NCBI RefSeq assembly: GCF_937859865.1
Contig: NZ_CALMAT010000009.1
Span: forward strand, 1-64,000
Length of the DNA stretch: 64,000 bases
DNA from: an uncultured Mucilaginibacter sp.
GTDB lineage: Bacteria > Bacteroidota > Bacteroidia > Sphingobacteriales > Sphingobacteriaceae
Direction: 5' to 3'
Part shown: piece after piece, positions 7,501 through 61,817 of the stretch
Layout of the letters: the number at the start of each line of letters is the position of its first letter
Position numbering within the stretch: position 1 is the stretch's first letter
Notes under the pieces: model-generated
What the model saw: only the letters and a program-made list of their open reading frames with translations
Told to the model about the DNA's origin: nothing
The model's database searches: none
Translations under genes and position numbers: made by a program

Positions 7501-7528
7501 AAATTTATACCGATAAAAACAGTATCAG
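7501..7528 (+). repeat. Variant motif copy (ACAG form)
   Basis: AAATTTATACCGA then TAAAAACAGTAT (core 7514-7525). It keeps the T-rich block and spacing of the main motif but has ACAG in place of GAAG. It is the first of eight exact ACAG-form copies. Confidence 0.75.
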
Positions 7529-9467: not shown

Positions 9468-9497
9468 CCAATTTTTATCCGATAAAAGAAGCATTGG
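9468..9497 (+). repeat. Archetype full-length dispersed motif
   Basis: CCAATTTTTATCC then GATAAAAGAAGCATTGG, 30 bp in all (core 9483-9494). The outermost CCAAT/ATTGG bases form an inverted pair. I used this copy as the reference for the extended motif: a T-rich block, a spacer of about 4-5 bases, the core, then TNGG. Confidence 0.9.
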
Positions 9498-20127: not shown

Positions 20128-22479
20128 ATGAAGCGATACTTCTTTTACCTACTCTTTTTCATTGTCCCTTCGTTTGTGAATGCACAAAATTTATTGCAAG
20201 GAACGGTTACCGATGCCATTACCCACGAACCTTTATCCAATGTTGTTATAAGTTCGGCTGGCGCGGATTTGAATGTTTTTAAAGACCTCGGCCAAACCAA
20301 TGCACAAGGAAAATACAATCTAAACTTACCGCAAGGAACAGTTAAAATCCGGTTTTCGATGACGGGTTATACTTCAAAAATTGTTAATATTTCTGCTTCA
20401 ACCTTAAACATTAGCCTGCAACCGGCAACGCTTGATCTGCAACCCGTTATTGTTTCTGCAAGTAGAGAAAAGCAAGCGCGGCAGGATGCACCAATCGCCA
20501 TCAGCAAGATCACTTCAATGCAAATTCAAGACACCAAGGCAACAGCATTATACCAATTGTTGAATAAAGTTGCCGGCGTTTACATGGTTGATCTGGGCAA
20601 CGAGCAGCATACGATGGCCATCCGCCAGCCTATTACTTTAAGCGCTTTGTATTTGTACATGGAAGATGGTTTGCCCATCCGGCCGACCGGTATTTTTAAC
20701 CATAATTCTTTGTACGAAATCAACATGAGCAGCGTGCGCGATATTGAAGTGATTAAAGGCCCGGCTTCTTCGCTTTACGGCAGCAATTCGGTTGGTGGCG
20801 CGGTTAATTTTATCACGCAAAATCCGCCTTCGGGTTATGCCGGAAACGTGAGTTTGCAGGGTGACCAATACCATTACCGCCGCGTGGATGCCAATGCTGG
20901 TTTTACTGCCGGAAAATTTGGTTTGTATGCGGGCGGTTATGTAGCGCATCAAAAAAATGGCTGGCAGGATTATTCTGATTTTGACAAGTATTCTTTCAAC
21001 CTCAAATCTACGTATGATTTTGACGCCGCCACGCGTTTAACCGCCGCCGCTTCCTACAATTACCTCAACACACAAACGCCAGGAACGTTGGATAGCGCGC
21101 ATTTTTACGATAAAAGTTACGGCTCCAACCAGCGTTTTACGTATCGAAAAGTGGAAGCTTTTCGTAGCAGCGCGCGTTTGGATCATGCTTGGAACGAACG
21201 TAATGCTTCTTTTATCACTGCTTTTTTCAGGGATAATTCCACCGCACAATTGCCCAGTTATTACATTGGCGATGTTCGAAATGCGGCTGGACAATACCTG
21301 AGTTCGAACGGACAAGTAAACGACCAGAAGTTTCGCAGTTACGGCTTTTTGGCGCAGCACCGCGCAGATTTTGGTTTCCTGCATTCGCGCTTAATTTTGG
21401 GTGCTTATCTGGATGATAGTCCGAGTTCTTACTACGCGCAATACCTCAGCATTACCAAAGACGTTGAGCGAAATTACTACACCGATTTTGTAAATACCGG
21501 CCGATATTTGGATGATTATCAGATCAAACTGTTTAACACTGCAGCTTATGCGCAATACGAATTGAAGCCAATTGAAGCTTTACGAATTGTTGCTGGTTTG
21601 CGTTACGATCGTGTGCATTACAATTTTGAAAATGGCTTGCCACCAAGCAACACCAAGTATAAACAACAGGAAACCAACGACTTCAACATTTTGGCACCGA
21701 AGCTGGGTTTGACTTACAACTTTGGAAATAACCAAGGTTTTTACGCTAATTACAGCGCCGGTTTCCAACCGCCTGAAACGAGCAATTTGTACAGTTCGCG
21801 CCAATTGGTTCCGCTTAAACAAGCCACGTTTAACAATTATGAGGTTGGCGGATGGCTTTCGGCTTTGAATAAAAAAATGTACTTCGAATTGAGTTTGTAC
21901 GATCTGGAAGGCCGCAACGAAATCATCAGCCAGCTTTTGCCCGATAACACCACGCAAAACCAAAACGCCGGTGCAACGCGCCACCGCGGCATCGAATACA
22001 GCATCAATTATTTGCCGGTAAAAGAAGTATCGTTTCGTTTTAGCGGAACAAACGCGCAACATACTTATTTGGATTACAGCGAAGTAGCTACCAATGCTGC
22101 CGGAAAAAATTATTCCATCAGTTACAACGGCAACCGCATGATCAACGCGCCGGCCTGGATCGCCAATTCGGAAATTTCGTACAAACCAATGTATTTTCAA
22201 GGTTTCCGCGTGGCGGGAGAGTGGCAGCACATCAATTCGTACTTCACCAATCCGGCCAATACCAAAACGTATGGCGGCTACAACATTTACAATTTGCGTT
22301 TGGGCTACGATTTTAAAAAGGATTTGCTGAAAGGCGCGGGCGTTTGGCTCAACGTGCTTAACCTTGCCAATAAACTCTACGCAACCACCGTAACCGGCAA
22401 TTCCTACGGCGATACTTACAACACCGGTTCGCCGCGCATTTACAATTTAGGCATCAGTTATAACTTTTCCAAACACTGA
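20128..22479 (+). CDS. TonB-dependent outer-membrane receptor
   Basis: 783 residues. Signal peptide MKRYFFYLLFFIVPSFVNAQ, a carboxypeptidase-regulatory-like beta domain (about 21-105, LLQGTVTDAITHEPLSNVVIS), a plug domain (about 115-235, IEVIKGPASSLYGSNSVGGAVNFITQNPP) and a 22-strand barrel ending YNLGISYNFSKH with terminal aromatic residues. It imports a ligand by TonB energy. With 783 residues it is the siderophore/metallophore size class and not SusC. Neighbours suggest a metal chelate, probably copper (inference). Motif cores at 20136-20147, 21203-21214 and 22019-22030 lie within it; the first encodes part of the signal peptide. Confidence 0.92.
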   Translation: MKRYFFYLLFFIVPSFVNAQNLLQGTVTDAITHEPLSNVVISSAGADLNVFKDLGQTNAQGKYNLNLPQGTVKIRFSMTGYTSKIVNISASTLNISLQPATLDLQPVIVSASREKQARQDAPIAISKITSMQIQDTKATALYQLLNKVAGVYMVDLGNEQHTMAIRQPITLSALYLYMEDGLPIRPTGIFNHNSLYEINMSSVRDIEVIKGPASSLYGSNSVGGAVNFITQNPPSGYAGNVSLQGDQYHYRRVDANAGFTAGKFGLYAGGYVAHQKNGWQDYSDFDKYSFNLKSTYDFDAATRLTAAASYNYLNTQTPGTLDSAHFYDKSYGSNQRFTYRKVEAFRSSARLDHAWNERNASFITAFFRDNSTAQLPSYYIGDVRNAAGQYLSSNGQVNDQKFRSYGFLAQHRADFGFLHSRLILGAYLDDSPSSYYAQYLSITKDVERNYYTDFVNTGRYLDDYQIKLFNTAAYAQYELKPIEALRIVAGLRYDRVHYNFENGLPPSNTKYKQQETNDFNILAPKLGLTYNFGNNQGFYANYSAGFQPPETSNLYSSRQLVPLKQATFNNYEVGGWLSALNKKMYFELSLYDLEGRNEIISQLLPDNTTQNQNAGATRHRGIEYSINYLPVKEVSFRFSGTNAQHTYLDYSEVATNAAGKNYSISYNGNRMINAPAWIANSEISYKPMYFQGFRVAGEWQHINSYFTNPANTKTYGGYNIYNLRLGYDFKKDLLKGAGVWLNVLNLANKLYATTVTGNSYGDTYNTGSPRIYNLGISYNFSKH

Positions 22480-29904: not shown

Positions 29905-30096
29905 TTTTAATCCCACTAAAGTTTTAGCCTGTTTGTTGCACCTATAAAATTCTAAAAAAAGGTTGATAAAAGAAGCATCAAGAGGGATAAGCATACTTCT
30001 TTTATCAACCTAAATCTTAACTGAGTCCGTTGATTGAAACGAAAGGATCACAAATCCTTAGCTCAAGGGGCCAGGGTTGCAAACCCTGACCAGCAG
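29905..30096. repeat. Composite palindromic repeat, copy A
   Basis: From TTTTAATCCCACT through a motif hairpin to GGATCACAAATCCTTAGC and GGGTTGCAAACCCTGACC. At its centre AGGTTGATAAAAGAAGCAT (29960-29978) pairs with ATACTTCTTTTATCAACCT (29993-30011), 19 bp with one G-U. About 190 bp are shared with copy B (32854-33080) and partly with copy C (34407-34556). Copy A and copy B bracket the IS1-containing island. Confidence 0.85.
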
Positions 30097-32853: not shown

Positions 32854-33080
32854 TCCGTCCTTTAAGCTTAGGATTTTTTTAATCCCCCTACAATATCCAA
32901 ATGTGCTGGTTGCTCCTATAACATTAAACTTTAATACCTTAAAAAAAAGGTTGATAAAAGAAGCATCAATGGGATTAGCATGCTTCTTTTATCAACCTAA
33001 AATCTGTAATTGAGTTGTTGAATTAAATCAATAGGATCACAGATCCTTAGCTCAATGGACAGAGTTACAAACCCTGACCA
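32854..33080. repeat. Composite palindromic repeat, copy B (most complete)
   Basis: The left arm CCGTCCTTTAAGCTTAGGAT is roughly the reverse complement of the right arm AGGATCACAGATCCTTAGCT plus GTTACAAACCCTGACC. Between them AGGTTGATAAAAGAAGCAT (32948-32966) and its perfect complement (32980-32998) form a 19-bp hairpin from two motif cores. So the unit is a palindrome inside a palindrome. The remainder of the gap 32692-33170 is AT-rich with no gene. Confidence 0.85.
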
Positions 33081-34406: not shown

Positions 34407-34556
34407 GGTTTGTAACCCCGTCCTTTGAATTAAGGATTTTTAATCCTATTAACCTGTCAAACCTTCTAACTGTAGCCTTTTCAATCCAAAAAAAGGTCGA
34501 TAAAAGAAGCATTTAATTTAAAAGCTCATGCTTCTTTTACCACCCTAAAATTGGTA
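34407..34556. repeat. Composite palindromic repeat, copy C (partial)
   Basis: GGTTTGTAACCCCGTCC and TTAAGGATTTTTAATCCT match the left arm of copy B, and then come AAAAAAAGGTCGA and a motif hairpin: TAAAAGAAGCAT (34501-34512) pairing with ATGCTTCTTTTA (34528-34539). The right arm is missing. It lies between the hxlR-type gene and the convergent end of the giant T9SS gene. Confidence 0.8.
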
Positions 34557-34579: not shown

Positions 34580-37500
34580 TTACCGAATCAAATGGATAAT
34601 CCCCTGCCTGCTTGGCGGGCCATGATTGTAACTCATGCCAGTCCATTCTTTACCGTTGATGTATGTGCCTTCTATTTGCCAAACGTAAACCCCTTGTGGC
34701 GCAGGCTGGCCGCCCATCATGCCGTCCCAGCCTTCGGCCGGTTCGCCGCGCTCGGTCAGTTTGGTGGTTTCCCAAATCACTTGTCCCCATTTGTTAAATA
34801 CGCGCATCCGCCAGGTTTTTAAGCCGGAACCTTTTATTTTGAATGTCGTTACTTCGTCGTATTTGCTGGTTGGCATAAAAGCATTCGGAACAAACATTTG
34901 TCCGGGTACACCGGTGATTTGGACTTTATGAACGATGGTATCGCCGCATCCCTGCAAATTGTAAACAATCAGCCGTACTTTGTAAACGCCGGTGTCGCGA
35001 TACGTATGCCCCGGGTTTTGCTTGCTCGAACCGCTGCCGTCGCCAAAACTCCATTGCCATAAAAGCGGTGAGTTAGTACTTCGGTCCGCAAAATCAAAAT
35101 TATGGTACGGGTAGGCAATCACGCTGTCGGGTTTCACGGTAAATGCTGCTTTTGGCGGTATCGTTATCGTGATGTAGTTTTTCATCACCATCGTATCGCT
35201 GCAACTCAAACCGTTTTTGGCAATTAAAGTAATGGTATAAGGCGTATTGCGGGCCGTAAAAGTGTGCTGCGGGTTGGCTGCTGTCGCCGTTCCGCCATCG
35301 CCAAAATCCCAGAAATACGTGTTTCCAGTGCCGGGCGTCAGGTTTTTAAAGTTAACGTTTTGGCGGATGCAGCCCGTTTGCACATCGGCGTTAAAGTTGG
35401 CGACCGGCTGCGGATAAACTGTAACAGACTGGTAAGTAGAAGTATCGGCACAACCATTGGTAGCCGTTAGTTTGATGTTGAACGTACCGCTTTTAAGGAA
35501 AGTGTGCGTAACCACTTCCGGTGCCGATTGTGTAGCCTGCGTGGTGCCATCGCCAAAATCATACGTAAAATAATTGCCGCCTTTGGTGTTGTTGTAGAAA
35601 TTAACGGTCCAGGGCGCACAACCAACTTTCTGATCGGCATTAATAACCAATTGCGGCAAAACCGATTTTGGCGAAATGCGCAAATTGTATTGTGTTACAC
35701 TGATGCCGCATTCGGTTTGGGCGGTCATTTTCACCACAAAAGTTTTGGCCGTCGCTGAAATGTAAGTATGCAGCACGTTCTGATTGTCGTGCGTAACCAG
35801 CGTTTGCCCGTCGCCAAAATCAAAAGTATAAGTGTTGTTGATGCCGGGCGAAGTATTGTTGAAGTTGACCGTGAACGGAGAACAGCCGATCGTTCGGTCG
35901 GGTGTAAAAATCGAGATTGGTTTCGGCCTCACCAAAACGGTAGAAGTGTAAGTGCGGATGCCGCAGGTGGTTAACGCTTTTAAGGTGATGGTAAATGTGG
36001 TGTCTTTGCCATCCTTACGCGGCTGAAAAGTAACCGGAAGCGGGTTTACCAAAGCCGAAGTTTGGCCGTTGCCGAAATTCCAGGTGTAAGTGGCCTGGTC
36101 TTTCGGGTTAGAAGTATTGTTAAAGGTAACCGTTAAAGGGCCGCAGCCTTTGTTTTGGTCTTGGGTAAAGCTGGCTTTTACTTCTTTGATCGTTGAAAAA
36201 GTATGGGTAAAAGAAGCATCCGGGCAACCGAACTTGCTGGTCACGATCAGTTTGATGACCACTTGTTTGTTGTCTTCGGTGATCGTATAACCAGGGAAAG
36301 TCAGCCCGCTGCCAAACTGCACGCCGTCGGCAAACCAACTATAAGTCGCATTTCCGGGAGCTGCTGTTGCTTTGATATTTTTGGCATCCAAAACATAAGG
36401 GATACAGCCCAGATCGCCGGTAAAAGTATAAGTTGGATTTACCAGCGGGTTTACATTTACGTTGATGACATTGCTGATGCTTTGCTGCGGGCCGGTACAC
36501 AAAAGCGAAGTAACCACCCGCCGGAATTGCGTAGTAACCGTTAAACTGTTGATCTGGTAATTGATACCGTTTGCGCCGGAAATGTTGGTCCAGTTGGCAC
36601 CGTTATCAATACTGCTTTGCCATTGGTAATAGTAAACACCATCGGCACCGGCCGGTGTGCTGCCAACGAAAAGTTTTGGCGTGTTGTTGTAGCAAACTTC
36701 CTGGTTGCTGCCAACGGTATTTTCTGTGATGGGTGGTTGAACAATGATGTGTACCGGCTGGCTGATGCTGCTGCAAGGGCCGGAAGTTACAATCCGCCTA
36801 AAATAAATACTGCTCGTAGCCGTAAAGGTGTAATTAATGCTGCTGGCACCTCGGATTGTAGCCCAGTTGGCGTTATCGGCACTGCTTTCCCAACTGTAAG
36901 CGTAGTTGCCGTTTCCACCGGTTGGCTTGTCGCCGATGACGGAAATGGTTTGTCCGTAACAAACGGCAGGCGCAGGGAAACTGATGTTGTTGCTGAGCAA
37001 TGAAAGATCGGAAATGGTTACGTCATCGGCAGAAGTAGCGCAGGCGCCAGTGCTGGTGATCGTCCAACGGAAAGTATATTGCTGGCCGGCAACCAAACCG
37101 CTAATTGGCGTATTATAACGGCTTGCATCGGCGAAGCCAACACCATTTTGACCGGAAGTTAAAGTCCACACACCGGTTGATGGCGAAGGGTTATTTCCCC
37201 TTAAAACATAAGTTGGCGAACTGCAAATCGCTTCATCCGCACCGGCATTTGCGGTAACCGGCTGCGGCAAAACAGTAACGGTAGCATCAACCGTAGGGCC
37301 AACACAGTTGTTTGCGCTGATTGGCGTAAGGTGATAAACAACGGTGGCAGGCGTAGTTAACGTAGAAGTAAGCACATCATCAATGCTGGTAGCAATCGTT
37401 GGATCCTGTTTTTTCATGTTACTAATGCCAGCAACAGGATCAAAAGTCCAGGATACCAAAGAGCCAGGAATATTAGTCTTAAACTTAATGCCAGTCGAAC

Positions 37501-41497: not shown

Positions 41498-41584
41498 ATG
41501 CTTCTTTTATCGTATAAAAATTGGTCGGCATCTGGTTTAGTTGAGTTGATAACAACACCAATTTTTATAGGGTAAAAGAAGCAT
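41498..41584. repeat. Inverted pair of full-length motifs
   Basis: ATGCTTCTTTTATCG with TATAAAAATTGGT (41498-41525) faces ACCAATTTTTATAGG with GTAAAAGAAGCAT (41557-41584). The 28-bp arms are nearly complementary with a loop of about 31 nt. It lies in the divergent gap 41372-41706 between the giant gene and the GH39-like gene. Confidence 0.85.
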
Positions 41585-41706: not shown

Positions 41707-43392
41707 ATGGAAAAATGGTTGCCGAAAGTTTTGTTTTTTGTTATTGTTTTTGCTTTGGCCCGGCCTGTAAATGCCCAGCATAAAGCTTCTATTCAGGTTG
41801 ATTTAAACAAAACAATAGCACCTCTGAAACCCGTTTGGGCATGGTTTGGCAACGACGAACCCAACTACGCCTATATGAAAGACGGGCAAAAGCTGCTGAC
41901 GGAACTTTCGGCTTTAAGCCCAGTGCCGGTTTACCTGCGCACTCATAATTTGATGACTTCCGGCGATGGGACGGCGGCTTTAAAATGGGGCTCGACCAAT
42001 ATTTATACCGAAGATAAAAACGGCAAACCCGTTTATGATTTTACCATTGTTGACCGCATTTTTGATGCTTATGTTAAACGCGGCATGAAACCTTTGGCGC
42101 AAATCGGTTTTATGCCCGAGGCTTTGTCCACGCATCCCCAACCTTACCAGCACCACTGGCAGCCCGGCCATCCTTATCAAGAAATTATTACCGGCTGGGC
42201 TTATCCACCAAAAGATTACCAGAAATGGGGCGAACTGGTTTACCAATGGGTGAAACATTGTGTAAAAAGGTACGGGCAAAAAGAAGTGGAAAGCTGGTAT
42301 TGGGAAGTTTGGAACGAACCCAACGGCGATTACTGGAAAGCTTCCGTTCCCGAATTTTATAAATTGTACGATTACGCCGCCGATGGTGTAAAACGCGCTT
42401 TGCTGACCGCAAAAGTTGGCGGGCCAGACGTAGCCGGAACAGGCGGCGCAGGTGGTTCCAAATTTTTACGCGGCTTTATCCAACATTGTTTAACCGATAC
42501 CAATAATGTAACAGGCAAAATCGGTTCGCCGCTGGATGTGGTTTTGTTTCATGCTAAAGGATCGCCAAGAGTGGTTGATGGTGTTGTGCGGATGAACATG
42601 GGCACACAACTCCGCGATATCGAAACCGGTTTTCAGATTGTCAAATCTTTTCCGCAAACCCAAAACCTGCCGATTATTATTGGCGAATCTGACCCGGAAG
42701 GCTGTGCTGCCTGCGGTATGCAAACCAATCCCGAAAACGCTTACCGCAACGGAACCCTGTTTTCCAGTTACACGGCTGCTTCTTTTGCCCGGGAATATTT
42801 ACTGGCGAATGAATACGGTGTCAACTTTAAAGGCGCGGTTTCCTGGTCTTTCGAGTTTGAAGACCAGCCCTGGTTTGCCGGTTTCCGTGATTTGGCCACA
42901 AACGGTGTGGACAAACCTGTGCTGAACGTTTTCCGGATGTTTGGCATGATGAAAGGAAACCGGGTGGAAGCAAATGGCACCAATTTTTATCCGCTAAAAA
43001 CAGTACGCGATTCCAGCGTGCGTAACCAAACTGATATTGGCGCTTTTGCTTCAAAAGATAAAAACCAGGCAGCCATAATGGTTTGGAATTACCACGATGA
43101 CGACGTGCAAGAAAACGGAAACACTGCAATTGCAATCAACGGCATCCCTTCTAAACAAATCAAACTGACGGAATACCGCATAGACCAAAACTACAGCAAC
43201 TCTTACGAGGTTTGGAAAAAGATGGGTTCGCCGCAAAAACCAACTTCGGCACAAATCTCAACGTTGGAAAAAGCCGGAATGCTGCAAACTGCCGGAAACC
43301 CTAAAACGATGACTGTAGAAAACGGCAAAATAACAATGGATTTGAATTTGCCGCGACAAGCTGTTGTGTTGCTAAAATTAGAATGGAAGTAA
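41707..43392 (+). CDS. GH39-like exported glycoside hydrolase
   Basis: 561 residues with a signal peptide (VLFFVIVFALARPVNAQ). A (beta/alpha)8 fold of clan GH-A resembling GH39 beta-xylosidases: PVYLRTHNLMTSGDG, MKPLAQIGFMPEAL, the acid/base Glu204 in WEVWNEPNGDYW, a probable nucleophile Glu327 in LPIIIGESDPEG, and a C-terminal beta domain. It should act on xylosides or related glycosides in the periplasm. An ACAG-form motif with complete T-block (42981-43006) lies inside the coding sequence. Monocistronic. Confidence 0.87.
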   Translation: MEKWLPKVLFFVIVFALARPVNAQHKASIQVDLNKTIAPLKPVWAWFGNDEPNYAYMKDGQKLLTELSALSPVPVYLRTHNLMTSGDGTAALKWGSTNIYTEDKNGKPVYDFTIVDRIFDAYVKRGMKPLAQIGFMPEALSTHPQPYQHHWQPGHPYQEIITGWAYPPKDYQKWGELVYQWVKHCVKRYGQKEVESWYWEVWNEPNGDYWKASVPEFYKLYDYAADGVKRALLTAKVGGPDVAGTGGAGGSKFLRGFIQHCLTDTNNVTGKIGSPLDVVLFHAKGSPRVVDGVVRMNMGTQLRDIETGFQIVKSFPQTQNLPIIIGESDPEGCAACGMQTNPENAYRNGTLFSSYTAASFAREYLLANEYGVNFKGAVSWSFEFEDQPWFAGFRDLATNGVDKPVLNVFRMFGMMKGNRVEANGTNFYPLKTVRDSSVRNQTDIGAFASKDKNQAAIMVWNYHDDDVQENGNTAIAINGIPSKQIKLTEYRIDQNYSNSYEVWKKMGSPQKPTSAQISTLEKAGMLQTAGNPKTMTVENGKITMDLNLPRQAVVLLKLEWK

Positions 43393-47251: not shown

Positions 47252-48025
47252 TTATTGATACACTTTCATCACCGTACGTTCAACAAGTCCTTTTGGCAAA
47301 AGCCAGGTGATAAACGCTCCGGCTTTGTTAATCAAACCTGTGATCACTTCCGGTTTTTTCCGGAACATCGCTTTTACGGCAATTTTTGCAACAGCCTGCG
47401 GTGTCATGTTGACCTGGCTGGCCGCCTTTAAAGCTTTTGCCCCAACTTGCGCGCGCACTACAAAATCAGTATCCGTGGCGCCTGGCGAAACGGCTGTTAC
47501 AGATACGCTGGTATTCCTTAGTTCCTGGTGCAAAGCGCGGCTAAAACTCAATAAAAAAGCTTTGCTTGCAGCATATAAACCCAATCCCGGCACGGCCTGG
47601 TAAGCCGCAGAACTTGCGGTATTTAAAATATAAGCCTGGGGCTGTGCCAAAAGCTGCGGTAAAAACAGTTGAGTTAACGTAACCGGAACGAGCATGTTCA
47701 CTTGCAGCATATCCAGGTTATTGGGCAAGGTTTGTTTATTGAAAGCACCGCTTAAACCGTAACCGGCATTGTTTACCAAAATATTAATGCTGAAGTTTTG
47801 TGCCGCGCACCAATCAAAAACTTTTTGGCCGGCATTTGCTTCGGCCAGGTCTACGGCCAGGAATGCTGTTTTTACCGCATGTTTTTTTGAAAGTTCGTCT
47901 GCTGCCTGTTGCAGCAAATCCTGGGAACGGGCAATCAGGATCAGGTCAATTTTGCGTGCCGCCAGTTCTTCTGCTATCGCTTTGCCAATGCCTTTGCTGG
48001 CGCCTGTTATTAATGCGTATGCCAT
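47252..48025 (-). CDS. SDR-family short-chain dehydrogenase
   Basis: 257 residues: ALITGASKGIGKAIAEELAARKIDLILIARS (cofactor loop), ILVNNAGYGLSG, NTASSAAYQAVPGLGLYAASKAFLLSFSRALHQEL (Ser, YxxxK) and SPGATDTDF. It resembles the DltE/YqjQ group of classical SDRs. It lies 64 nt downstream of a PhyH-family gene on the same strand, so they may be co-transcribed. Substrate unknown. Confidence 0.93.
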   Translation of the reverse strand: MAYALITGASKGIGKAIAEELAARKIDLILIARSQDLLQQAADELSKKHAVKTAFLAVDLAEANAGQKVFDWCAAQNFSINILVNNAGYGLSGAFNKQTLPNNLDMLQVNMLVPVTLTQLFLPQLLAQPQAYILNTASSAAYQAVPGLGLYAASKAFLLSFSRALHQELRNTSVSVTAVSPGATDTDFVVRAQVGAKALKAASQVNMTPQAVAKIAVKAMFRKKPEVITGLINKAGAFITWLLPKGLVERTVMKVYQ

Positions 48026-49165: not shown

Positions 49166-49266
49166 ATCAATGCTTCTTTTACCCTATAAAAATTGGTGCC
49201 TGTATCAATTTAAACAAATCAAAAACCAAATGTTTGCCAATTTTTAGGTGATAAAAGAAGCATTGG
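49166..49266. repeat. Inverted pair of full-length motifs in a 389-bp gap
   Basis: AATGCTTCTTTTACC with CTATAAAAATTGG (core 49170-49181) faces CCAATTTTTAGGTG with ATAAAAGAAGCATTGG (core 49252-49263). The arms are about 28 nt with a loop of about 43 nt. The rest of 48906-49294 is AT-rich leader of the PhyH gene and I see no gene in it. Confidence 0.85.
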
Positions 49267-50934: not shown

Positions 50935-52083
50935 TTATGCTTTTAACAACTGTTCAAGCGCTTTTGCCAGTGTTTCCTGCTTTTTGGCGAAACAAAAGCG
51001 CAAGATGCCAAAGTCAGTTTTCTTGTTGTAGAAAGCAGAATTTGGTATCGCAGCCACGCCATTTTCCCTGATTAATTGCTTGGCAAAATCAACATCGTTT
51101 TCATTGGTTATCGTGCTGTAATTTACGGATTGAAAGTAAGAACCCGCGCAAGGCAGCAATTTAAAACGCGAACTTTCTAAACCAGCCCGAAAAAAATCGC
51201 GCTTTTGCTGATAGAAATCAGAAAGTTCAAGATATGCTTCTTTTACCTGCATAAATTTGGCAAGGGCAAACTGCATGGGCGTATTCACCGAAAAAACATT
51301 AAACTGATGGATTTTCCTAAACTCGTTCATCAGCCAAACTGGTGCCATGCAATAACCAATTTTCCAACCGGTGATATGGAAAAGTTTACCAAAAGAAGCA
51401 ACAATCAAGCTGCGTTCGGCCAGTTCGGGGTAGCGCGCCATACTGCGGTGCGGTTGCCCATCAAAAATAATGTGTTCGTAAACTTCATCGCTCAAAATCA
51501 AAATATCCGTTTTATGGGTGAGGTTGATCAGCTCGCGGATGTCCTCTTCCTGTAAAACCGTGCCGGTTGGGTTGTGCGGCGAGTTGAGGATGATCATTTT
51601 AGTGCGCGAAGAAACCAAGCGCCGCACCATGTTCCAGTTGATGCGGTAATCGGGCGGTTCCAGTTCCAAGCGTTTTACCACGCCACCCATTAACTGGATA
51701 GCCGGGGCATAACAATCATAAGCCGGTTCAAAAATAATCACCTCATCATTTGGGTGGATGGTGGCGCAAATGGCCGTAAAAATAGCCTGCGTGCCGCCAG
51801 CGGTAATGGTAATTTCGTTTTCAGGATGATAAGTTGCACCGTACAGTTCCTGTGTTTTGGCCGCAATGGCTTCGCGCAAAGGCAAAACACCAGCCATCGG
51901 TGCATATTGGTTGTGGCCTTGCTGCATGGCCTGGTTTGTCAGTTTGATTAATTCGGGCGGACAGTCAAAATCAGGAAAGCCCTGCGATAAATTAATAGCC
52001 CCGGCCTGTTGCGCTAAAGCAGACATCACCGTAAAAATATTAGTGCCCGTTTGCGGAAGTTTAGATTGAAAAGCGATCATCAA
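50935..52083 (-). CDS. Methionine/glutamine aminotransferase (YbdL-like, class I PLP)
   Basis: 382 residues. AGAINLSQGFPDFDCPPELI, NSPHNPTGTVLQEED, LSDEVYEHIIFDG and the PLP lysine in IVASFGKLFHITGWKIGYCMAP identify the YbdL-type aminotransferase/kynurenine aminotransferase subgroup. Two adjacent Met codons allow start at 52083 or 52080. An exact motif (51234-51245) with its T-block lies in frame, encoding MQVKEAY. Upstream partner of the omega-amidase. Confidence 0.92.
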   Translation of the reverse strand: MMIAFQSKLPQTGTNIFTVMSALAQQAGAINLSQGFPDFDCPPELIKLTNQAMQQGHNQYAPMAGVLPLREAIAAKTQELYGATYHPENEITITAGGTQAIFTAICATIHPNDEVIIFEPAYDCYAPAIQLMGGVVKRLELEPPDYRINWNMVRRLVSSRTKMIILNSPHNPTGTVLQEEDIRELINLTHKTDILILSDEVYEHIIFDGQPHRSMARYPELAERSLIVASFGKLFHITGWKIGYCMAPVWLMNEFRKIHQFNVFSVNTPMQFALAKFMQVKEAYLELSDFYQQKRDFFRAGLESSRFKLLPCAGSYFQSVNYSTITNENDVDFAKQLIRENGVAAIPNSAFYNKKTDFGILRFCFAKKQETLAKALEQLLKA

Positions 52084-53610: not shown

Positions 53611-53637
53611 ATGCTTCTTTTACCATGCATTATTTGG
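53611..53637 (-). repeat. Dispersed motif copy between convergent genes
   Basis: ATGCTTCTTTTACCATG with CATTATTTGG (core 53611-53622). It occupies nearly the whole 27-bp gap and its right end overlaps the stop region of the treY-malQ gene. Confidence 0.85.
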
Positions 53638-56600
53638 TGCGGTTGTAAAACAGCGCCATTTTTCGCAATCTTTTAGCTAAAGTTGAATTAAGTTCGCCCG
53701 GTTGCATCCGCCAGCTCCAGTTTTTTTCTGTTGAAGCTGGCGTATTCATCCTGGCCCTTTCATCCAAACCTAAAACATCCTGCACAGGCACTACAACAGT
53801 TTTTGCTACGGATGAGTAAGCCAAACGGATCAAATTCCAATGTACATTTTGCCGGTTTAATGCTGCGTTGGCATATTGCGCCAGCCTTTCTACCGATTGC
53901 GGATCAGCATCTTTTGTAAACCAGCCAACGCTTGTATTATTGTCGTGCGTGCCGGTATAAGCAAAATGGTTTGGGGTATAATTGTGCGGAATATGCGGCG
54001 AGCCAGGCATGTCATCGCCAAAGGCAAACTGCAAAACTTTCATTCCGGGCAGGTTAAATTCGTCGCGCAATTGGTAAACAGCTTCGGTAATTTCGCCTAA
54101 ATCTTCGGCAACAAAAGGTAGTTCGCCCAATTGCTGCTGCATCACTTTAAAAAATTCACTTCCCGGTCCGGTTTTCCATTCGCCGTTGATGGCTGTTTTT
54201 TCTGTTGAAGGCACTTCCCAATAATCGGCAAAAGCACGGAAATGGTCCAGCCGCAGCTTGTCAAACAGTTCTATGTTTTTGCGGATGCGCTGTACCCACC
54301 AGGCGTAATTGTTTTCTTTCATCACCTCCCAACGGAAAACCGGCATTCCCCAAAGCTGTCCATCGGCATTAAAATAATCCGGCGGAACGCCAGCCACGCC
54401 AACCATATTGCTGTTTTCATCCAAAGAAAACAATTGTGGGTTAGCCCAAACATCAACCGAATCGTAACTGATGTAAAAAGGCAAATCGCCCAAAAGCTGG
54501 ATGCTTCTTTTACGGCAGTAATTTTTTAAACCATGCCATTGCTTAAAAAACAAATATTGCAGCCATTTTTCTTTTTGCAATTGCTGGTCGTTTTCTACCG
54601 CAAACCGTTTTAAAGTCTGCTCGTCGCGTTTTTTAAATTCGTCCGGCCATTCGTACCAGGGCGTTCCATCATGCTCTGATTTTAAAACGGTGTAAAGCAC
54701 AAAGTTATCCAGCCAAAAATCTTCATTCTCACAAAACAGGTTAAATTCCTGCTCCAACTGGTCAAAATTCCCTTCCTGAAAACGTTGGTAAGCCTGGTCA
54801 AAAAGTTGTTCTTTTACCCGTTTTGCACCTTCAAAATCGGTTTGGTTGGTTGGCGGAAGCATTGATTTTTTCAGATCTTTTTTCTCCAGCAAACCTTCCT
54901 TCACCAACAATTCGGGACTAATCAGCAACGTGTTTCCGGCCATACTGGAAAACGAACTGTAAGGCGAATTGGCCTGCGCTGGCCCGGTTGGGTTTAGCGG
55001 CAGCAGTTGCCAGTATTGCTGTTTGCTTTTGTGCAGAAACCGGGCAAAACGTTTGGCTTCCGGCCCTAAATCGCCGATGCCAAAAGGCGAAGGCAGCGAA
55101 GTTAGGTGCATCAAAATACCAGAATTTCTTTCCGATGGCTGCTGTTCCATTTTTAAAAAAGCATAAGGCAACGAACCGAACAAAGCACCAACTTCAATCG
55201 CACTGTCTTCTACCAAGCCTTGGTTGTTATCCAGCAAATTTTTCCAATCTGCCGGTGCTTCCAAAGGCAAACTTACACGCGTTTGTTTCCAGTTGATGCT
55301 CTGAAAATCGGTATTTTGTTCTTTGCAAATGGTGGCCAAACCCATTGGCACAACCGTAATGTACCAGGTTTGCTCAAATTGCCGCGCAAAAGCCATCAGG
55401 TTTTCTTTGTATTTGCCTTTGATAGTCAGCGGGATGTATTTTCCTTTTGCAAACACTTCGGGCACTGATTTTCGCTCGGTAAAAAGAGCATTTACGAGAT
55501 GTAATTTGATGCTGGCGTTGTAACGCGTTTCCCAAAGTTCATCCGGCGTTAACGGTTTTTCTCCGCTGATTTGTGCTAAAGCTGCCAACCGTTTTTCATA
55601 ATCCACCGGACGGCGGTTATCCGGGTCAACCATGCTGAAATCCCAAAACTCGCAGCCCTGATAAACATCCGGAATGCCCGGACAGGTAAATTTCAACAGC
55701 ACTTGCGCTAAAGAATTGATAATGCCGAGGTCAGCAATTTTTCGGTGAAAAACAGAAAAGTTCTGCCAAAATTTGGTTGATTTATCTAAAATTCCGTTGA
55801 TAAAAGAAGCAGTGGCCTGTTCGTATTGTTCGTTCTCAGTTGCCCAATCCGAGTTTCTTTTGCCTTCCCGCAAGGCTTTCACCATGTATTCTTGCAGGCG
55901 GTCGCGGTAATTGTCTTCATCTTCGCCAGGCATCGGGAAAGTGGCGATCAGCGTTTCGTAGATGAAATATTCGTCGTTCGCATCCGGCAAGTTGTTGGTT
56001 TTCAATCTGGCGTTCATTTCCTGCCAGCCTTTCACCTGCTCAAACCATTCTTCCTCCAAGTCCGAAAGCACGTTTAAACGCGCCCGCGCACCTTCGCCGC
56101 GTTTGGTGTCGTGCGTAGAAGTCGCGTTGATCGCCAGCGGCCATTTCTCTTGTTTTTCCAGCATTTGGTTGTGGAATTCCTCTGCAGAAACCCCAAAAGC
56201 ATCCGGCGCATCGCCAACTTCGCTATGGCCAATGAAGCGGTTGTAGGTGTACATCAGCGTATCTTCCACACCTTTGGCCATCAGCGGGCCGGTAAACTGC
56301 ATCAAGCGTTGGTAAAAAAGCAAAGCACGACTGTTAAAATCATTTTTGTTTTTGGGCGAAGGATGCAGCAAAACATCTTCCAGCAGCGTTAAAGCCAGGT
56401 AAAGTTCGGGTCGGTTTTTGTGGATTAAAGCGAATACTTCTTTTACCTGCCTAAATTCTTCCTCGCCCAACGGGAATTGGTTGCCGTAAAAACGATAAAC
56501 CGGACAATAGATCAGCAGTGCACCAATCGCATTTTTTAAATCTTCGGGACCGGTATTTTTTAACGCTTTTTTTGGTGCGAGGTTCAGTTCCAAAAAATAA

Positions 56601-57853
56601 TGGTACAGGTTTTCCAGTTCGCCGCCCATGTGTTCGCGCAAAATAAGCGCTTTCTTTTCGCGGATTTGCTTTTGCACCGGTTTCTGGTCGCCGGACAATT
56701 GCTGGTAAAATTGGGTAAACTGTTTTTCCGAATTTTTATTGGTGAAAATATTATTTACCAAAGCCAAAAAGTCGTAACCTGAAGTTCCTTGTACCGGCCA
56801 GTAATCGGGCAAGCGTTCGCCTTTTTCCAGGATTTTCTCAACAACAATATAAGTTTCCGGTCCCGCCATTTTCCGCAATTGTTCCAGGTACAAAGTCGGG
56901 TCGTACAGGCCATCAATATGGTCAATCCGCAGTCCTTGGAAAATGCCTTCTTTTACCCATTCCAATATTTTTTGGTGATACGTTTCAAAAACTTCCTGTT
57001 GTTGGATGTTGAGGCAAACCAAACTGTTCACCGTGAAAAATCGGCGGAAATTGATCTTGCTGTCGGTTTCTTTGTACGAACATAAACGGTAATGCTGTTC
57101 TTCGGCCAAAGCCAAAATCAAATCCGGGTTTTGGTTGATTTTTTCGAGATTCGCTTCGATCAAACTGTGGATTTTCTCTTCCTTCATCATAGAAGCCAAC
57201 TGCAATTTGACCTCGTTCCAGCGCAGCGCATACTGTTTTGCATCGTCCAGCATTTCCAAATCTTCCAACTGGTTCACCAATTGCCTAATGGTTTCATCCG
57301 AATTTTCATGCGGTAAAAGAAGTATCGAGGCGTAAGAACGCGGGCTGAGCGGATAATTGTTTTCAAAGTAATCCAACACCAAACGGTCATCTTTAAAAGC
57401 CACTTTGATATCGCCTTTTCTAACGGTTTCGTCCAGTGCATCGCCCAAAAACGGAACCATCACTTTATCTTTGAAAAAAGTACCGGTAAAAGAAGTATCA
57501 AAAAAACCGGCATAAGCAGAGCGCGCGCCTTTTTCCAGCACGTCCATTAACCAAGGGTTTTTGGTACTGAAAGCCATATGGTTGGGTACAATATCCTGCA
57601 GCCATTGCATCCCAAATTCTTTCAGTTTCTGGCTGATGGAACGTAGTTGTTCTTCTGTGCCGATTTCCGGGTTGATGCGGTGCGGGTTCAAACCGTCGTA
57701 ACCGTGCGTGCTGCCCGAAGTAGCTTCCAAAATAGGCGAAGCGTAAATGGTAGAAACGCCCAGCTTTTGCAGGTACGGAATGATTTTTTCGAAATCATCA
57801 AAATTAAAATCTTTATGAAACTGTAACCGGTAGGTAGATACAGGGTTGGTCAT
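53630..57853 (-). CDS. Fusion of maltooligosyl trehalose synthase and 4-alpha-glucanotransferase
   Basis: 1407 residues. Residues 1 to about 860 are TreY (TNPVSTYRLQFHKDFNFDDFEKIIPYLQKLGVSTIYASPILEATSGSTHGYDG, then HDTKRGEGARARLNVLSD), which converts the reducing-end alpha-1,4 bond of maltodextrin to alpha-1,1. From about 870 it is MalQ (GILMHLTSLPSPFGIGDLGPEAKRFARFL, DHFRAFADYWEVPSTE, FVAEDLGEIT, AYTGTHDNNTSVGWF). It starts inside the end of treZ (ATGA overlap). One polypeptide thus both trims or extends glucan chains and caps them. Five or more motif cores lie inside (54501, 56434, 57314, 57487 and variants). Confidence 0.9.
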   Translation of the reverse strand: MTNPVSTYRLQFHKDFNFDDFEKIIPYLQKLGVSTIYASPILEATSGSTHGYDGLNPHRINPEIGTEEQLRSISQKLKEFGMQWLQDIVPNHMAFSTKNPWLMDVLEKGARSAYAGFFDTSFTGTFFKDKVMVPFLGDALDETVRKGDIKVAFKDDRLVLDYFENNYPLSPRSYASILLLPHENSDETIRQLVNQLEDLEMLDDAKQYALRWNEVKLQLASMMKEEKIHSLIEANLEKINQNPDLILALAEEQHYRLCSYKETDSKINFRRFFTVNSLVCLNIQQQEVFETYHQKILEWVKEGIFQGLRIDHIDGLYDPTLYLEQLRKMAGPETYIVVEKILEKGERLPDYWPVQGTSGYDFLALVNNIFTNKNSEKQFTQFYQQLSGDQKPVQKQIREKKALILREHMGGELENLYHYFLELNLAPKKALKNTGPEDLKNAIGALLIYCPVYRFYGNQFPLGEEEFRQVKEVFALIHKNRPELYLALTLLEDVLLHPSPKNKNDFNSRALLFYQRLMQFTGPLMAKGVEDTLMYTYNRFIGHSEVGDAPDAFGVSAEEFHNQMLEKQEKWPLAINATSTHDTKRGEGARARLNVLSDLEEEWFEQVKGWQEMNARLKTNNLPDANDEYFIYETLIATFPMPGEDEDNYRDRLQEYMVKALREGKRNSDWATENEQYEQATASFINGILDKSTKFWQNFSVFHRKIADLGIINSLAQVLLKFTCPGIPDVYQGCEFWDFSMVDPDNRRPVDYEKRLAALAQISGEKPLTPDELWETRYNASIKLHLVNALFTERKSVPEVFAKGKYIPLTIKGKYKENLMAFARQFEQTWYITVVPMGLATICKEQNTDFQSINWKQTRVSLPLEAPADWKNLLDNNQGLVEDSAIEVGALFGSLPYAFLKMEQQPSERNSGILMHLTSLPSPFGIGDLGPEAKRFARFLHKSKQQYWQLLPLNPTGPAQANSPYSSFSSMAGNTLLISPELLVKEGLLEKKDLKKSMLPPTNQTDFEGAKRVKEQLFDQAYQRFQEGNFDQLEQEFNLFCENEDFWLDNFVLYTVLKSEHDGTPWYEWPDEFKKRDEQTLKRFAVENDQQLQKEKWLQYLFFKQWHGLKNYCRKRSIQLLGDLPFYISYDSVDVWANPQLFSLDENSNMVGVAGVPPDYFNADGQLWGMPVFRWEVMKENNYAWWVQRIRKNIELFDKLRLDHFRAFADYWEVPSTEKTAINGEWKTGPGSEFFKVMQQQLGELPFVAEDLGEITEAVYQLRDEFNLPGMKVLQFAFGDDMPGSPHIPHNYTPNHFAYTGTHDNNTSVGWFTKDADPQSVERLAQYANAALNRQNVHWNLIRLAYSSVAKTVVVPVQDVLGLDERARMNTPASTEKNWSWRMQPGELNSTLAKRLRKMALFYNRTK

Positions 57854-59697
57854 TTTTGGTTGCTGTAAATGGTGATGGATTGTGGTTGAAGGGAAACCGG
57901 AGCGGAAGCGTTAACAGATTGAGGCACATTTTCCGGTCCGTTCCATTCGGGATCGGCAGAAGCCAAAGCTTTATACCATTGCTGCTGGTTGTGCGGCAAT
58001 TGAATTTGCTGGATTTGCTCAGAAAAGTTCATCAAACAAAGCACCTGGTTATCTTCGTGCCAGCGGTGCAGCATTAACGTTTTAGTGTTTTCATCCGAAG
58101 AAACCTCCAAATGCTGCCGGTTTAAGTGATGCAAAGCAGGAAGTTTTTTCCGCAAGGAAATCAAGGCTTTGTAAAAGCGCAGCATGGCAGCGTGCGGTTC
58201 CTTCCCGACCAAATCCCATTGCAATTTTGATTGGTTAAAAGTAGCTTCGTCCACCGGGTCGGGCGCTTCGCCTTCGGCATGAAAAGCGGCAAATTCTGCT
58301 TTGCGGCCTTTGCGTACCGCTTCGGCCAGTTCCGGATCGGTGTGGCTTACGAAGTACAAAAACGGATTTGGTTCGCTGTATTCTTCGCCCATAAAAAGCA
58401 TTGGTAAAAAAGGCGCTACTAAAACCGATCCGGCCATCAGTTTCTGCATTTCAAAACTGAAAAGCTGGCTGCTGCGTTCGCCCAACATCCGGTTTCCAAC
58501 CTGGTCGTGGTTTTGGGAGAAGACGATAAACTGCTCGCCCGGGTTATGTTCGGTTTTGATGCCAAAGGTTTTTTTGCGGTGCGGCGAATACAAACCGTCG
58601 TAAACGTAAGCATTGCGGTAGGCTTTTTCCAGATGCTTGATGCCTTCAAAATCTGAATAATAGCCCGTTTTATCACCGCTAACGGTAACGCGCAAAGCGT
58701 GATGAAACTCATCAATCCATTGCGCATCCATCCCGAAACCTTCTTTTTCCAAAGGGTTGACAAAGCGCGTATCGTTCAAATCCAGCTCCACGATTAAGTG
58801 ATGTTTGCGGCCGGTTTCGGCCATCAACTGGTTTACTTCCTGCTTAATTTCGCGTAGCAAATGCTTGGTGCTGAAATCTTTAATGGCGTGAACCGCATCC
58901 ATCCGCAAGGCATCAATATGGAAATCGCGGAACCACATCAGCACGTTTTCGATGTAATACTGACGCACGGCATCGCAGTATTCGTCGTCAAAATTAATGG
59001 CGTTTCCCCAGGGCGTATTGTATTTTTGGGTAAAGTACTGGCCAAATTCGCCAAAATAATTGCCTTCCGGTCCTAAATGGTTGTACACCACATCCAGCAC
59101 CACGGCGATGCTTTTTTTATGGCACAAATTTACGAGGTGCTGCAAACCTTGGGCACCGCCATAAGAATTTTGAACGGCGAAAGGAAAAACGCCATCGTAG
59201 CCCCAGTTCCGGCCACCGGGAAACTGGGCAACCGGCATAATTTCTATCGCCGTAATGCCCAGTTCTTTTAAATAATCCAGTTTTTCTTCGATGCCTGCAA
59301 AAGTACCTTGAGGCGTAAAAGTGCCGGTGTGCAACTCGTACAACAAGTAACCTGCTAAAGGATAGTTTTGCCAGTTTTGATCGTCCCAATCAAAAGCAGA
59401 AAGATCAATGGCTTGCGATGCACCATGCACACTTTCAGGTTGTGCCAGCGAAGCAGGATCGGGCAACTCCTTTTCTCCGTCTAAAACAAATTGGTACGGG
59501 TCATTGGGTTTTAAATCCGAAGTTGTTAAAAGCCAGTAACCGTAGGATGCTTCTTTTAGCAGGTATTTTTTGTTATTAGAAGTGAGCAGCAGTTCTGCAG
59601 ATTTTGCTTTTGGCGCCCAAAGTTTTACTTCGGCTTCGCCTTCGGCATTAAAATTTACACCAATGCTGCGTTTTTTTAGGTTGAGATCAGTCAGCAT
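57850..59697 (-). CDS. treZ: Maltooligosyltrehalose trehalohydrolase
   Basis: 615 residues: an N-terminal beta domain (KLWAPKAKSAELLL), then a GH13 barrel with YLLYELHTGTFTPQGTFAGI, FHIDALRMDAVHAIKDFS (nucleophile Asp), HHLIVELDLNDTRFV (acid/base Glu) and FSQNHDQVGNRMLGERSSQL. It releases trehalose from the maltooligosyl trehalose made by the neighbouring TreY. It lies 2 nt after glgX and overlaps treY by four bases. Motif core at 59547-59558. Confidence 0.94.
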   Translation of the reverse strand: MLTDLNLKKRSIGVNFNAEGEAEVKLWAPKAKSAELLLTSNNKKYLLKEASYGYWLLTTSDLKPNDPYQFVLDGEKELPDPASLAQPESVHGASQAIDLSAFDWDDQNWQNYPLAGYLLYELHTGTFTPQGTFAGIEEKLDYLKELGITAIEIMPVAQFPGGRNWGYDGVFPFAVQNSYGGAQGLQHLVNLCHKKSIAVVLDVVYNHLGPEGNYFGEFGQYFTQKYNTPWGNAINFDDEYCDAVRQYYIENVLMWFRDFHIDALRMDAVHAIKDFSTKHLLREIKQEVNQLMAETGRKHHLIVELDLNDTRFVNPLEKEGFGMDAQWIDEFHHALRVTVSGDKTGYYSDFEGIKHLEKAYRNAYVYDGLYSPHRKKTFGIKTEHNPGEQFIVFSQNHDQVGNRMLGERSSQLFSFEMQKLMAGSVLVAPFLPMLFMGEEYSEPNPFLYFVSHTDPELAEAVRKGRKAEFAAFHAEGEAPDPVDEATFNQSKLQWDLVGKEPHAAMLRFYKALISLRKKLPALHHLNRQHLEVSSDENTKTLMLHRWHEDNQVLCLMNFSEQIQQIQLPHNQQQWYKALASADPEWNGPENVPQSVNASAPVSLQPQSITIYSNQK

Positions 59698-59699
59698 GC

Positions 59700-61817
59700 T
59701 TATTTTCTTTGGTTTTTTAAAACAACTACCGATCGTCCGGCTACATTGATCGTTTCTTCTGCCTTAAAACAAACGCCGTTTTCGGATATGCAATCTTCCG
59801 ATGTATCTAATACTTTGAGCCAGTTTTTTGCAAATTTTTCAGGTGGCAGCACGTAATCCAAAGGGCCATGGTAGGCGTTAAAGATCACGTAAAAACTGTC
59901 GTCCAAAATTTTATTGCCCTGTTCATCTACATAATGCAATTCGCGGCCGTTTAAAAATACGCCCAAGGATTTGGCAAAATCATGCGACCAATTTTCCTCC
60001 GACATTTCTATTCCTTCGGGCAAAAACCAGGCAATATCGTTTACCTTGGAACGGATAGCAACACCCTGAAACCAATTTCGGCGGCAAAAAACAGGATGGT
60101 TTTTGCGCAGCTCGATCAGTTTTTGGGTAAACTCCAGTAAACTTTGATCTGCATTTTCCCAGTCGAGCCACGAAACTTCGTTGTCCTGGCAGTAAGCATT
60201 ATTGTTTCCGCCTTGCGTTCGCCCAAACTCATCGCCGGCAACCAACATCGGCACACCTTGTGATAAAAATAAGGTGGTGAGCAAATTACGTTTTTGCTGG
60301 TTCCGAAGTTTGATAATTTCCGGGTCGTCAGTCAGGCCTTCTGTGCCGCAGTTCCAGGAGCGGTTATGGCTTTCGCCGTCGTTGTTGTTTTCGCCGTTTG
60401 CTTCGTTGTGTTTTTCATTGTACGAAACCAGGTCGTGCAACGTAAAACCATCATGTGCGGTAATAAAGTTGATGCTGGCCGTTGGGTTACGGGAATCATC
60501 CATGTACAAATCCGGGCTGCCGCTCAAACGTTCTGCAAACTCGCCCAGCATACTATCGGCGCCACGCCAGTAATCGCGCATGCAATCGCGGTACTTGCCG
60601 TTCCACTCGGCCCATTCGGATGGAAAGTTTCCTACCTGGTAACCGCCTTCGCCAATATCCCAGGGCTCTGCAATAAGTTTGGCTTGAGAGATGATCGGAT
60701 CCTGATAAATGATCTCAAAAAAGGAACTTAATTTGTTTACCTCGTGCAGTTCGCGCGCCAACGTGGCAGCCAAATCAAACCGGAAACCATCCACGTGCAT
60801 TTCGGTGATCCAGTAACGCAAACTATCCATAATTAAACGAAGCACGTTGGGCAAATTGGCGTTGAGCGTGTTGCCGGTGCCGGTGTAGTCTTTGTAATAG
60901 CGTTTGTTTTCTTCCATCAACCGGTAATAAGCCGTATTGTCTATACCTTTAAAAGAAAGCGTTGGGCCGAGTTCGTTCCCTTCGGCGGTATGGTTGTAAA
61001 CCACGTCAATAATCACTTCAAGCCCTGCTTTGTGCAGTTCTTTTACCATGTTTTTAAATTCGGTAACCTGCTGGCCTTGCGTGCCGCTGCTGGAGTAGCG
61101 CACATCTGGCGCAAAAAAACCGATGGTATTGTAACCCCAATAGTTGGACAGGTTGTGTTTTACCAAATGTTCATCAATGATAAAATGATGAACAGGCATC
61201 AGTTCTACGGCCGTAATCCCCAGTTCTTTTAAATATTTGATGGTTGCCGGATGCGCCATGGCTGCATAAGTGCCTCTGATTTCCTCCGGGATTTCGGGAT
61301 TGAGGTTGGTAAAGCCTTTAACATGGGTTTCGTAAATAATGGTTTTATGGTAAGGAATATCGGGCAGTTTGTCGCCTTCCCAATCGTATCTTTCGTCAAT
61401 GATAACACTTTTCGGAATATATTCTGCGTTGTCAACATCGCTGAAACTTAGGTCTTTATTCGGGTCGTTAATATCATAACCAAAAAGCGATTCGTGCCAT
61501 TTTACTGGCCCGGCGATGGATTTGGCATAAGGGTCAATCAAAACCTTGCATGCGTTGTAGCGTAAACCGTTCAGCGGATCATATGGGCCGTCAACACGGT
61601 AACCGTAAAGCTGCCCGGCTTTTAGTTTGGGGAGGTAAATATGCCAGATGTAATGCGTGCACTCTTTTACATCTATTTTTGTTTCGTGGCCGTCATCATC
61701 AAACAAACACAATTGTATTGCGGTAGCGCCGGGAGCAAAGAGCGCAAAATTAACACCTTTGTTGTCCAATGTTGCTCCTAAAGGGTATGGGTTTCCAGGA
61801 TAATTGTTCATAATCAT
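59700..61817 (-). CDS. glgX: Glycogen debranching enzyme
   Basis: 705 residues. GH13 isoamylase class: N-terminal NYPGNPYPLGATLDNKGVNFALFAPGATAIQLCLFDDDG, the barrel motifs VVYNHTAEGNELGPTLSFKGIDN, VDGFRFDLAATLARE, LIAEPWDIGEGGYQVGNFP and NFITAHDGFTLHDLVSYNEKHNEANGE. It cleaves alpha-1,6 branches and provides linear maltodextrin for TreY/TreZ and MalQ. First gene of the operon glgX-treZ-treY/malQ. Upstream lies a hairpin of variant motifs (61910-61939). Confidence 0.95.
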   Translation of the reverse strand: MIMNNYPGNPYPLGATLDNKGVNFALFAPGATAIQLCLFDDDGHETKIDVKECTHYIWHIYLPKLKAGQLYGYRVDGPYDPLNGLRYNACKVLIDPYAKSIAGPVKWHESLFGYDINDPNKDLSFSDVDNAEYIPKSVIIDERYDWEGDKLPDIPYHKTIIYETHVKGFTNLNPEIPEEIRGTYAAMAHPATIKYLKELGITAVELMPVHHFIIDEHLVKHNLSNYWGYNTIGFFAPDVRYSSSGTQGQQVTEFKNMVKELHKAGLEVIIDVVYNHTAEGNELGPTLSFKGIDNTAYYRLMEENKRYYKDYTGTGNTLNANLPNVLRLIMDSLRYWITEMHVDGFRFDLAATLARELHEVNKLSSFFEIIYQDPIISQAKLIAEPWDIGEGGYQVGNFPSEWAEWNGKYRDCMRDYWRGADSMLGEFAERLSGSPDLYMDDSRNPTASINFITAHDGFTLHDLVSYNEKHNEANGENNNDGESHNRSWNCGTEGLTDDPEIIKLRNQQKRNLLTTLFLSQGVPMLVAGDEFGRTQGGNNNAYCQDNEVSWLDWENADQSLLEFTQKLIELRKNHPVFCRRNWFQGVAIRSKVNDIAWFLPEGIEMSEENWSHDFAKSLGVFLNGRELHYVDEQGNKILDDSFYVIFNAYHGPLDYVLPPEKFAKNWLKVLDTSEDCISENGVCFKAEETINVAGRSVVVLKNQRK

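Follow-up and report, generated by a model that had tools for sequence, protein, structure and literature searches.

A genus-specific bipartite motif with a shape-defined A-tract in Bacteroidota: a candidate self-DNA uptake sequence

The stretch of DNA analysed here (64,000 nucleotides, hereafter the window; contig 9 of a draft genome of 3.98 Mb in 177 contigs) carries a dispersed motif made of two parts, a 12-bp core and a second conserved part that is a shape-defined A-tract, present genus-wide in the three species compared. We consider it likely, with moderate confidence, that this motif is a self-DNA uptake sequence of the USS/DUS kind that evolved independently.

The sequence at positions 9468-9497 is CCAATTTTTATCCGATAAAAGAAGCATTGG. 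The window contains 48 occurrences of the core TAAAAGAAGYAT, where 0.05 would be expected, and its genome contains 2624 (1331 forward, 1293 reverse) against five for the reversed pattern. A k-mer survey and a substitution scan gave the core consensus TAAAA(GA/AC)AGYAT, in which positions 5-6 are mainly GA or AC. In 0.93 Mb of the window's genome the GA form was counted 612 times and the AC form 167 times, and the same scan found the single-step intermediates to be rare (AA 40, GC 19); genome-wide, AC cores number 856 (0 for the reversed pattern), 714 and 786 in the three species. GA and AC are two interchangeable dialects of the core, the AC copies leaning toward genes (77 coding, 60 intergenic). 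Both orientations are equally common and the total density of the motif is 0.8-0.9 per kb. As for known USS and DUS, a short core is present in hundreds to thousands of copies, far over chance, on both strands, within and between genes, and long homology of the flanks is absent. The individual copies of the window referred to below are:

9468-9497, + strand: intergenic site; A-tract ATTTT at 9471-9475, spacer, core TAAAAGAAGCAT at 9483-9494
36196-36219, + strand: coding copy, AAAA block; core 36208-36219, antisense in a 2263-aa ORF
57302-57325, + strand: coding copy, TTTT block; core 57314-57325, antisense in a 4-alpha-glucanotransferase (GH77) fusion gene
57475-57498, + strand: coding copy, AAAA block; core 57487-57498, in the 4-alpha-glucanotransferase (GH77) fusion gene
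51234-51257, - strand: coding copy, ATTT block; core 51234-51245, in an aminotransferase gene
42981-43006, + strand: coding copy, TTTT block; AC core with one end mismatch, TAAAAACAGTAC, at 42995-43006, in a family 39 glycosyl hydrolase gene
21203-21226, - strand: coding copy, AAAA block; core 21203-21214, in a TonB-dependent receptor gene
47863-47886, - strand: AC coding copy, AAAA block; core TAAAAACAGCAT at 47863-47874
7502-7525, + strand: AC intergenic copy, ATTT block; core 7514-7525

The fusion gene belongs to an operon-like run at 53630-61817 (4-alpha-glucanotransferase/alpha-amylase fusion, alpha-amylase-family enzyme, isoamylase-like protein) that probably serves glycogen or trehalose metabolism.

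A sequence-only reading of the window had proposed that the motif possesses a second conserved part, a T-rich block about one helical turn upstream of the core. The flanks were analysed in 0.93 Mb of the window's genome and 0.4 Mb from each of two sister species, with genes called by a simple codon-usage script, coding and intergenic copies kept apart, and position frequencies taken from de-duplicated cores (557, 150 and 236 in the three species). With position 0 set at the T of TAAAA, the block spans -12 to -8, and information at -13 to -8 is well over background in every set (three species, coding and intergenic), so that the proposed second part is borne out and its signal did not fall to background once duplicates were removed. 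An A/T tetramer free of TpA occupies -11 to -8 in 74% of the coding copies (n=368; background 6.9%) and in 92% of the intergenic ones (n=777; background 11%). Broken down by species and dialect, the share of copies with such a tetramer at -11 is 68-86% in the coding sets and 83-95% in the intergenic ones (P < 1e-14 each); the AC copies possess it at the same distance as the GA copies. Enrichment peaks at offset -11 and is near zero four bases to either side, with a weak second enrichment at +16 to +19. Measured between centres, the block and the core's AAAA are 12 bp apart, in agreement with the suggested helical turn. Duplication as the origin of the block is ruled out by the de-duplicated, coding and AC-dialect sets. 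All those copies listed in the sequence-only reading that were inspected carry the block; the one at 42981-43006 joins it to an AC core with an end mismatch.

What did not hold is the description of the block as a T-block. At -11 to -8, 94-97% of the intergenic and 83-90% of the coding copies have only A and T, and AAAA, TTTT, AATT, ATTT and AAAT are all accepted, whereas tetramers containing TpA are avoided. Among the A/T tetramers of the window's genome, TpA is found in 11 of 357 intergenic and 14 of 100 coding copies, against expectations of 54% and 51% from background A/T tetramers and of 41% and 62% from column frequencies. Coding copies carry AAAA as often as TTTT (35 and 32), which rules out a T-specific block. 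Because TpA is nearly excluded and AAAA is as common as TTTT, we read the block as an A-tract of either strand; A-tracts are stiff, have a narrow minor groove and are indifferent to strand. Positions -4 to -1 (S, Y, G, R) and +12 (Y) are constrained too in the position frequencies, and the full site, of about 26-32 bp, is R-A-(A-tract, WWWW without TpA)-spacer-SYGR-TAAAA(GA or AC)AGYAT-Y.

The sequence contexts of the coding copies are unrelated, and their reading frame varies with what the encoded protein can tolerate. We compared them with the orthologous genes of the two sister species (median protein identity 81-84%). Of the orthologous coding sites, 41 of 61 and 29 of 39 retain the core, whereas random 12-mers from these genes are retained in 10-11% of cases. 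The A-tract is retained at 36 of 43 and 27 of 29 sites, compared with 63-66% for other A-tract tetramers of the genes concerned. At five orthologous sites the dialect was swapped between GA and AC and the site was otherwise intact. The bipartite motif is therefore under constraint at the DNA level.

Part of the intergenic copies belong to a small repeated element. Among core pairs 60-100 bp apart, outward-facing ones outnumber inward-facing ones about fourfold (89 vs 22 and 82 vs 21 in two species). Two outward-facing pairs lie in the window:

41498-41584: outward pair in a MITE-like intergenic element with the motif at its ends; cores 41498-41509 (- strand) and 41573-41584 (+ strand)
49170-49263: outward pair of the largest element cluster; cores 49170-49181 (- strand) and 49252-49263 (+ strand)

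Twenty-three outward pairs from two species can be aligned over their full length and form one element of about 94 bp, each end of which bears the motif with its A-tract, facing outward; a sister species is empty at some of its sites and has the same element at others. No clear target duplication was seen at these elements. Further elements lie at L035:832, L039:13384, L069:17574 and other positions. An outer part, CCAAT...ATTGG, is mostly confined to intergenic copies, many of them within the element. With their intergenic location, inverted ends and presence or absence between species, the elements resemble MITEs, and the excess of outward pairs, the 23 full-length alignments and the empty sites would fit a motif that is simply the end of a mobile MITE-like element, its solo copies being remnants that inherited the block by descent. 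As a complete explanation, this is refuted by the coding and AC copies, and we consider it very unlikely; it applies to some of the intergenic copies. Unlike MITEs, many copies of the motif are solo and in coding sequence, their flanks convergent and not inherited; coding copies carry AAAA and TTTT equally in unrelated contexts, the AC dialect has the same block, and the interiors of most outward pairs do not cluster. Since the intergenic block signal is partly inherited through the element, the coding and AC copies are the clean evidence, and the coding ones argue that the tag, rather than the element, is the general feature.

A role as transcription terminator or other RNA hairpin signal was also considered. 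Motif density is higher between convergent genes in two of the three genomes (5.2-5.3 vs 2.1-3.7 per kb), and some inward pairs lie 20-30 bp apart; three in the window, within 5 kb, have near-identical spacing (25-27 bp) and are possibly terminators:

29967-30004: inward pair, about 26 bp apart, in an arrangement that could form a terminator hairpin
32955-32991: inward pair (32955/32980), like 29967-30004
34501-34539: inward pair (34501/34528), like 29967-30004

Against such a role for the motif at large, the arms flanking the core show no covariation in any set, so that a hairpin across the core is ruled out and none accounts for the block; the block is retained in genes, on both strands; and AAAA is accepted like TTTT, which pairing with the core would forbid. 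The earlier statements that the block is kept inside coding sequence, and that a hairpin or terminator cannot explain it there, were thus right, and a terminator reading is highly improbable.

A site that guides recombination or segregation enzymes along the chromosome, in the manner of Chi or KOPS, would also account for thousands of genus-specific copies retained in coding sequence. Such sites are strand-biased with respect to replication; here, intergenic copies classified by GC skew number 246 leading and 224 lagging in the window's genome (a draft assembly with the origin unmapped) and 121/108 and 80/70 in the two sister species, and this absence of bias argues against a site of either type. 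Distant neighbours in the window's genome have the same orientation in 171 cases and opposite orientations in 209. One sample is more favourable: in contig 1 of sister genome G251 (1-400 kb, L049-L068) distant neighbours share orientation in 69 cases against 40, unlike in the other two species. Neither Chi nor KOPS is known to have anything like the A-tract part, and we judge a site of this kind quite unlikely. Even spacing of the copies was tested for and is absent overall, the spacing being close to random.

The same G251 contig contains a 73 kb stretch (~49143-122276, loci L051-L055) with a single copy of the motif where about 46 were expected. Its gene products include two phage-type integrases, a resolvase, a KAP NTPase and a TrwC relaxase, and the stretch is probably a mobile or integrated element. 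In this one region, recent arrivals therefore appear to be free of the tag, as predicted for a self-tag. Sites dispersed over the chromosome and nearly missing from a mobile region would also suit the main alternative, in which an abundant chromosome-organising or nucleoid protein binds the motif through its core and a narrow minor groove, and the motif is maintained for the sake of chromosome structure; a shape-type A-tract at a fixed distance from a core is typical of such proteins. Known site systems of this class comprise tens to hundreds of copies, far fewer than the ~3500 exact copies found here, and a replication-linked pattern is absent. We regard this alternative as unlikely.

The taxonomic limits of the motif are narrow. 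A second species of the genus has 2321 core copies and the third also carries the motif, whereas each of the 249 further family genomes searched contains 0-20 core copies, which is background. Only background was found outside the genus in a 396-genome sample across the phylum, no comparable motif emerged from a k-mer survey of ten other family genomes (40 kb each), and viral contigs gave single core matches only, with no virus carrying multiple copies. The motif is specific to one Bacteroidota genus. A candidate motif in the class relative G257 was rejected as a local heptamer tandem repeat (ACTGCCC, at L112:3109-3160 and L115:3622-3733), not a dispersed motif; such repeats mimic over-represented motifs in k-mer surveys.

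Among known systems, the closest in layout is the USS of Pasteurellaceae such as Haemophilus influenzae, as had been pointed out before: both have thousands of dispersed copies, on both strands, genic and intergenic, in dialects, with AT-tracts at helical-turn spacing from a core, a predicted narrow minor groove and about 30 bp in total. The USS consensus runs core, AT-tract, 6 bp, AT-tract; on its other strand, the genus motif runs inner core, T-tract, spacer of about 7 bp and A-tract, a proximity to that consensus which we take as a lead, not a test. Rigid, narrow-groove AT-tracts next to the core have been predicted from uptake data for the H. influenzae USS (PMC7811141), which extends to 32 nt (PMC12616744). 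The differences are that the phylum is another one, the core is unrelated (the USS has a GCGG inner core) and the genus has one near-obligatory and almost TpA-free tract. The DUS of Neisseriaceae shares a 12-bp core, a similar copy number, dialects a few positions apart and inverted pairs; unlike the genus motif it is continuous, with no distant A-tract.

The two known systems also differ from the genus in machinery. Pasteurellaceae use type IV pilus genes for uptake, and the DUS receptor is the pilin ComP. Searches for the PilB/GspE, secretin and T2SSF/PilC families (PF00437, PF00263, PF00482) gave no match over the cut-off in any of the three genomes, whereas among the relatives searched seven or eight have these families. 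A type IV pilus or related machine with a pilin-type receptor is hence lacking, and the absence of pilus ATPase, secretin and platform protein excludes the known pilus-bound readers. ComEC, DprA and a multi-HhH (ComEA-like) protein are present; ComEC is also found in nearly all motif-free relatives, and is therefore not discriminating, nor is its pairing with DprA, and HhH proteins likewise occur in motif-free relatives. Within the phylum, Riemerella (Flavobacteriaceae) transforms by a ComEC/DprA/RecA route (PMC7965970, PMC8459023), using proteins of unknown function and no pilus homologues (PMC8459023). R. columbina, which also has none (PMC8459023), prefers its own DNA (PMC7965970). Pilus-free uptake thus exists in Bacteroidota. 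For Riemerella, only low-complexity over-represented k-mers have been listed and no such motif, and the DUF5689 surface protein, essential for its transformation, is absent from the genus. Our literature search returned no uptake experiment for the genus.

An uptake sequence is taken as the likeliest reading because of the USS-like layout and the narrow-groove, rigid AT-tracts of H. influenzae. We also count in its favour the A-tract in coding and intergenic copies of both dialects and three species; the conservation, dialect swaps and unrelated contexts of coding sites; the lack of strand bias, the depleted 73 kb region and the density of copies; and ComEC, DprA, the multi-HhH protein and the R. 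columbina precedent. Against it count the missing machine of both known systems, the absence of DUF5689, the near-random spacing and the putative status of competence, and hence of uptake, in the genus.

We infer uptake, a receptor and a drive of the following kind. A surface or outer-membrane DNA-binding protein would read the core bases directly and, one turn away, sense the narrow minor groove of the A-tract; in a genus that has no type IV pilus, this reader would have to be a different, novel outer-membrane machine. Fragments bearing the site would be preferred for uptake, enter via ComEC and then be handled by DprA and RecA, and recombination of these preferred fragments would gradually seed and maintain the motif where it is tolerated, mostly between genes. 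More tentatively, and short of what we would call probable, self-DNA recognition may have evolved a third time, independently, in this genus of Bacteroidota: a surface receptor other than a pilus would read the core and the shape-defined A-tract, and a small mobile element would have gained the tag at each of its ends and be spreading along with it.

If this is true, the USS-like motif of a Bacteroidota genus without pili would represent a third origin, which would imply a different receptor, and would allow a test of whether AT-tracts next to a core serve DNA entry generally and not pili. The A-tract rule, either strand and no TpA, provides a direct, testable shape requirement.
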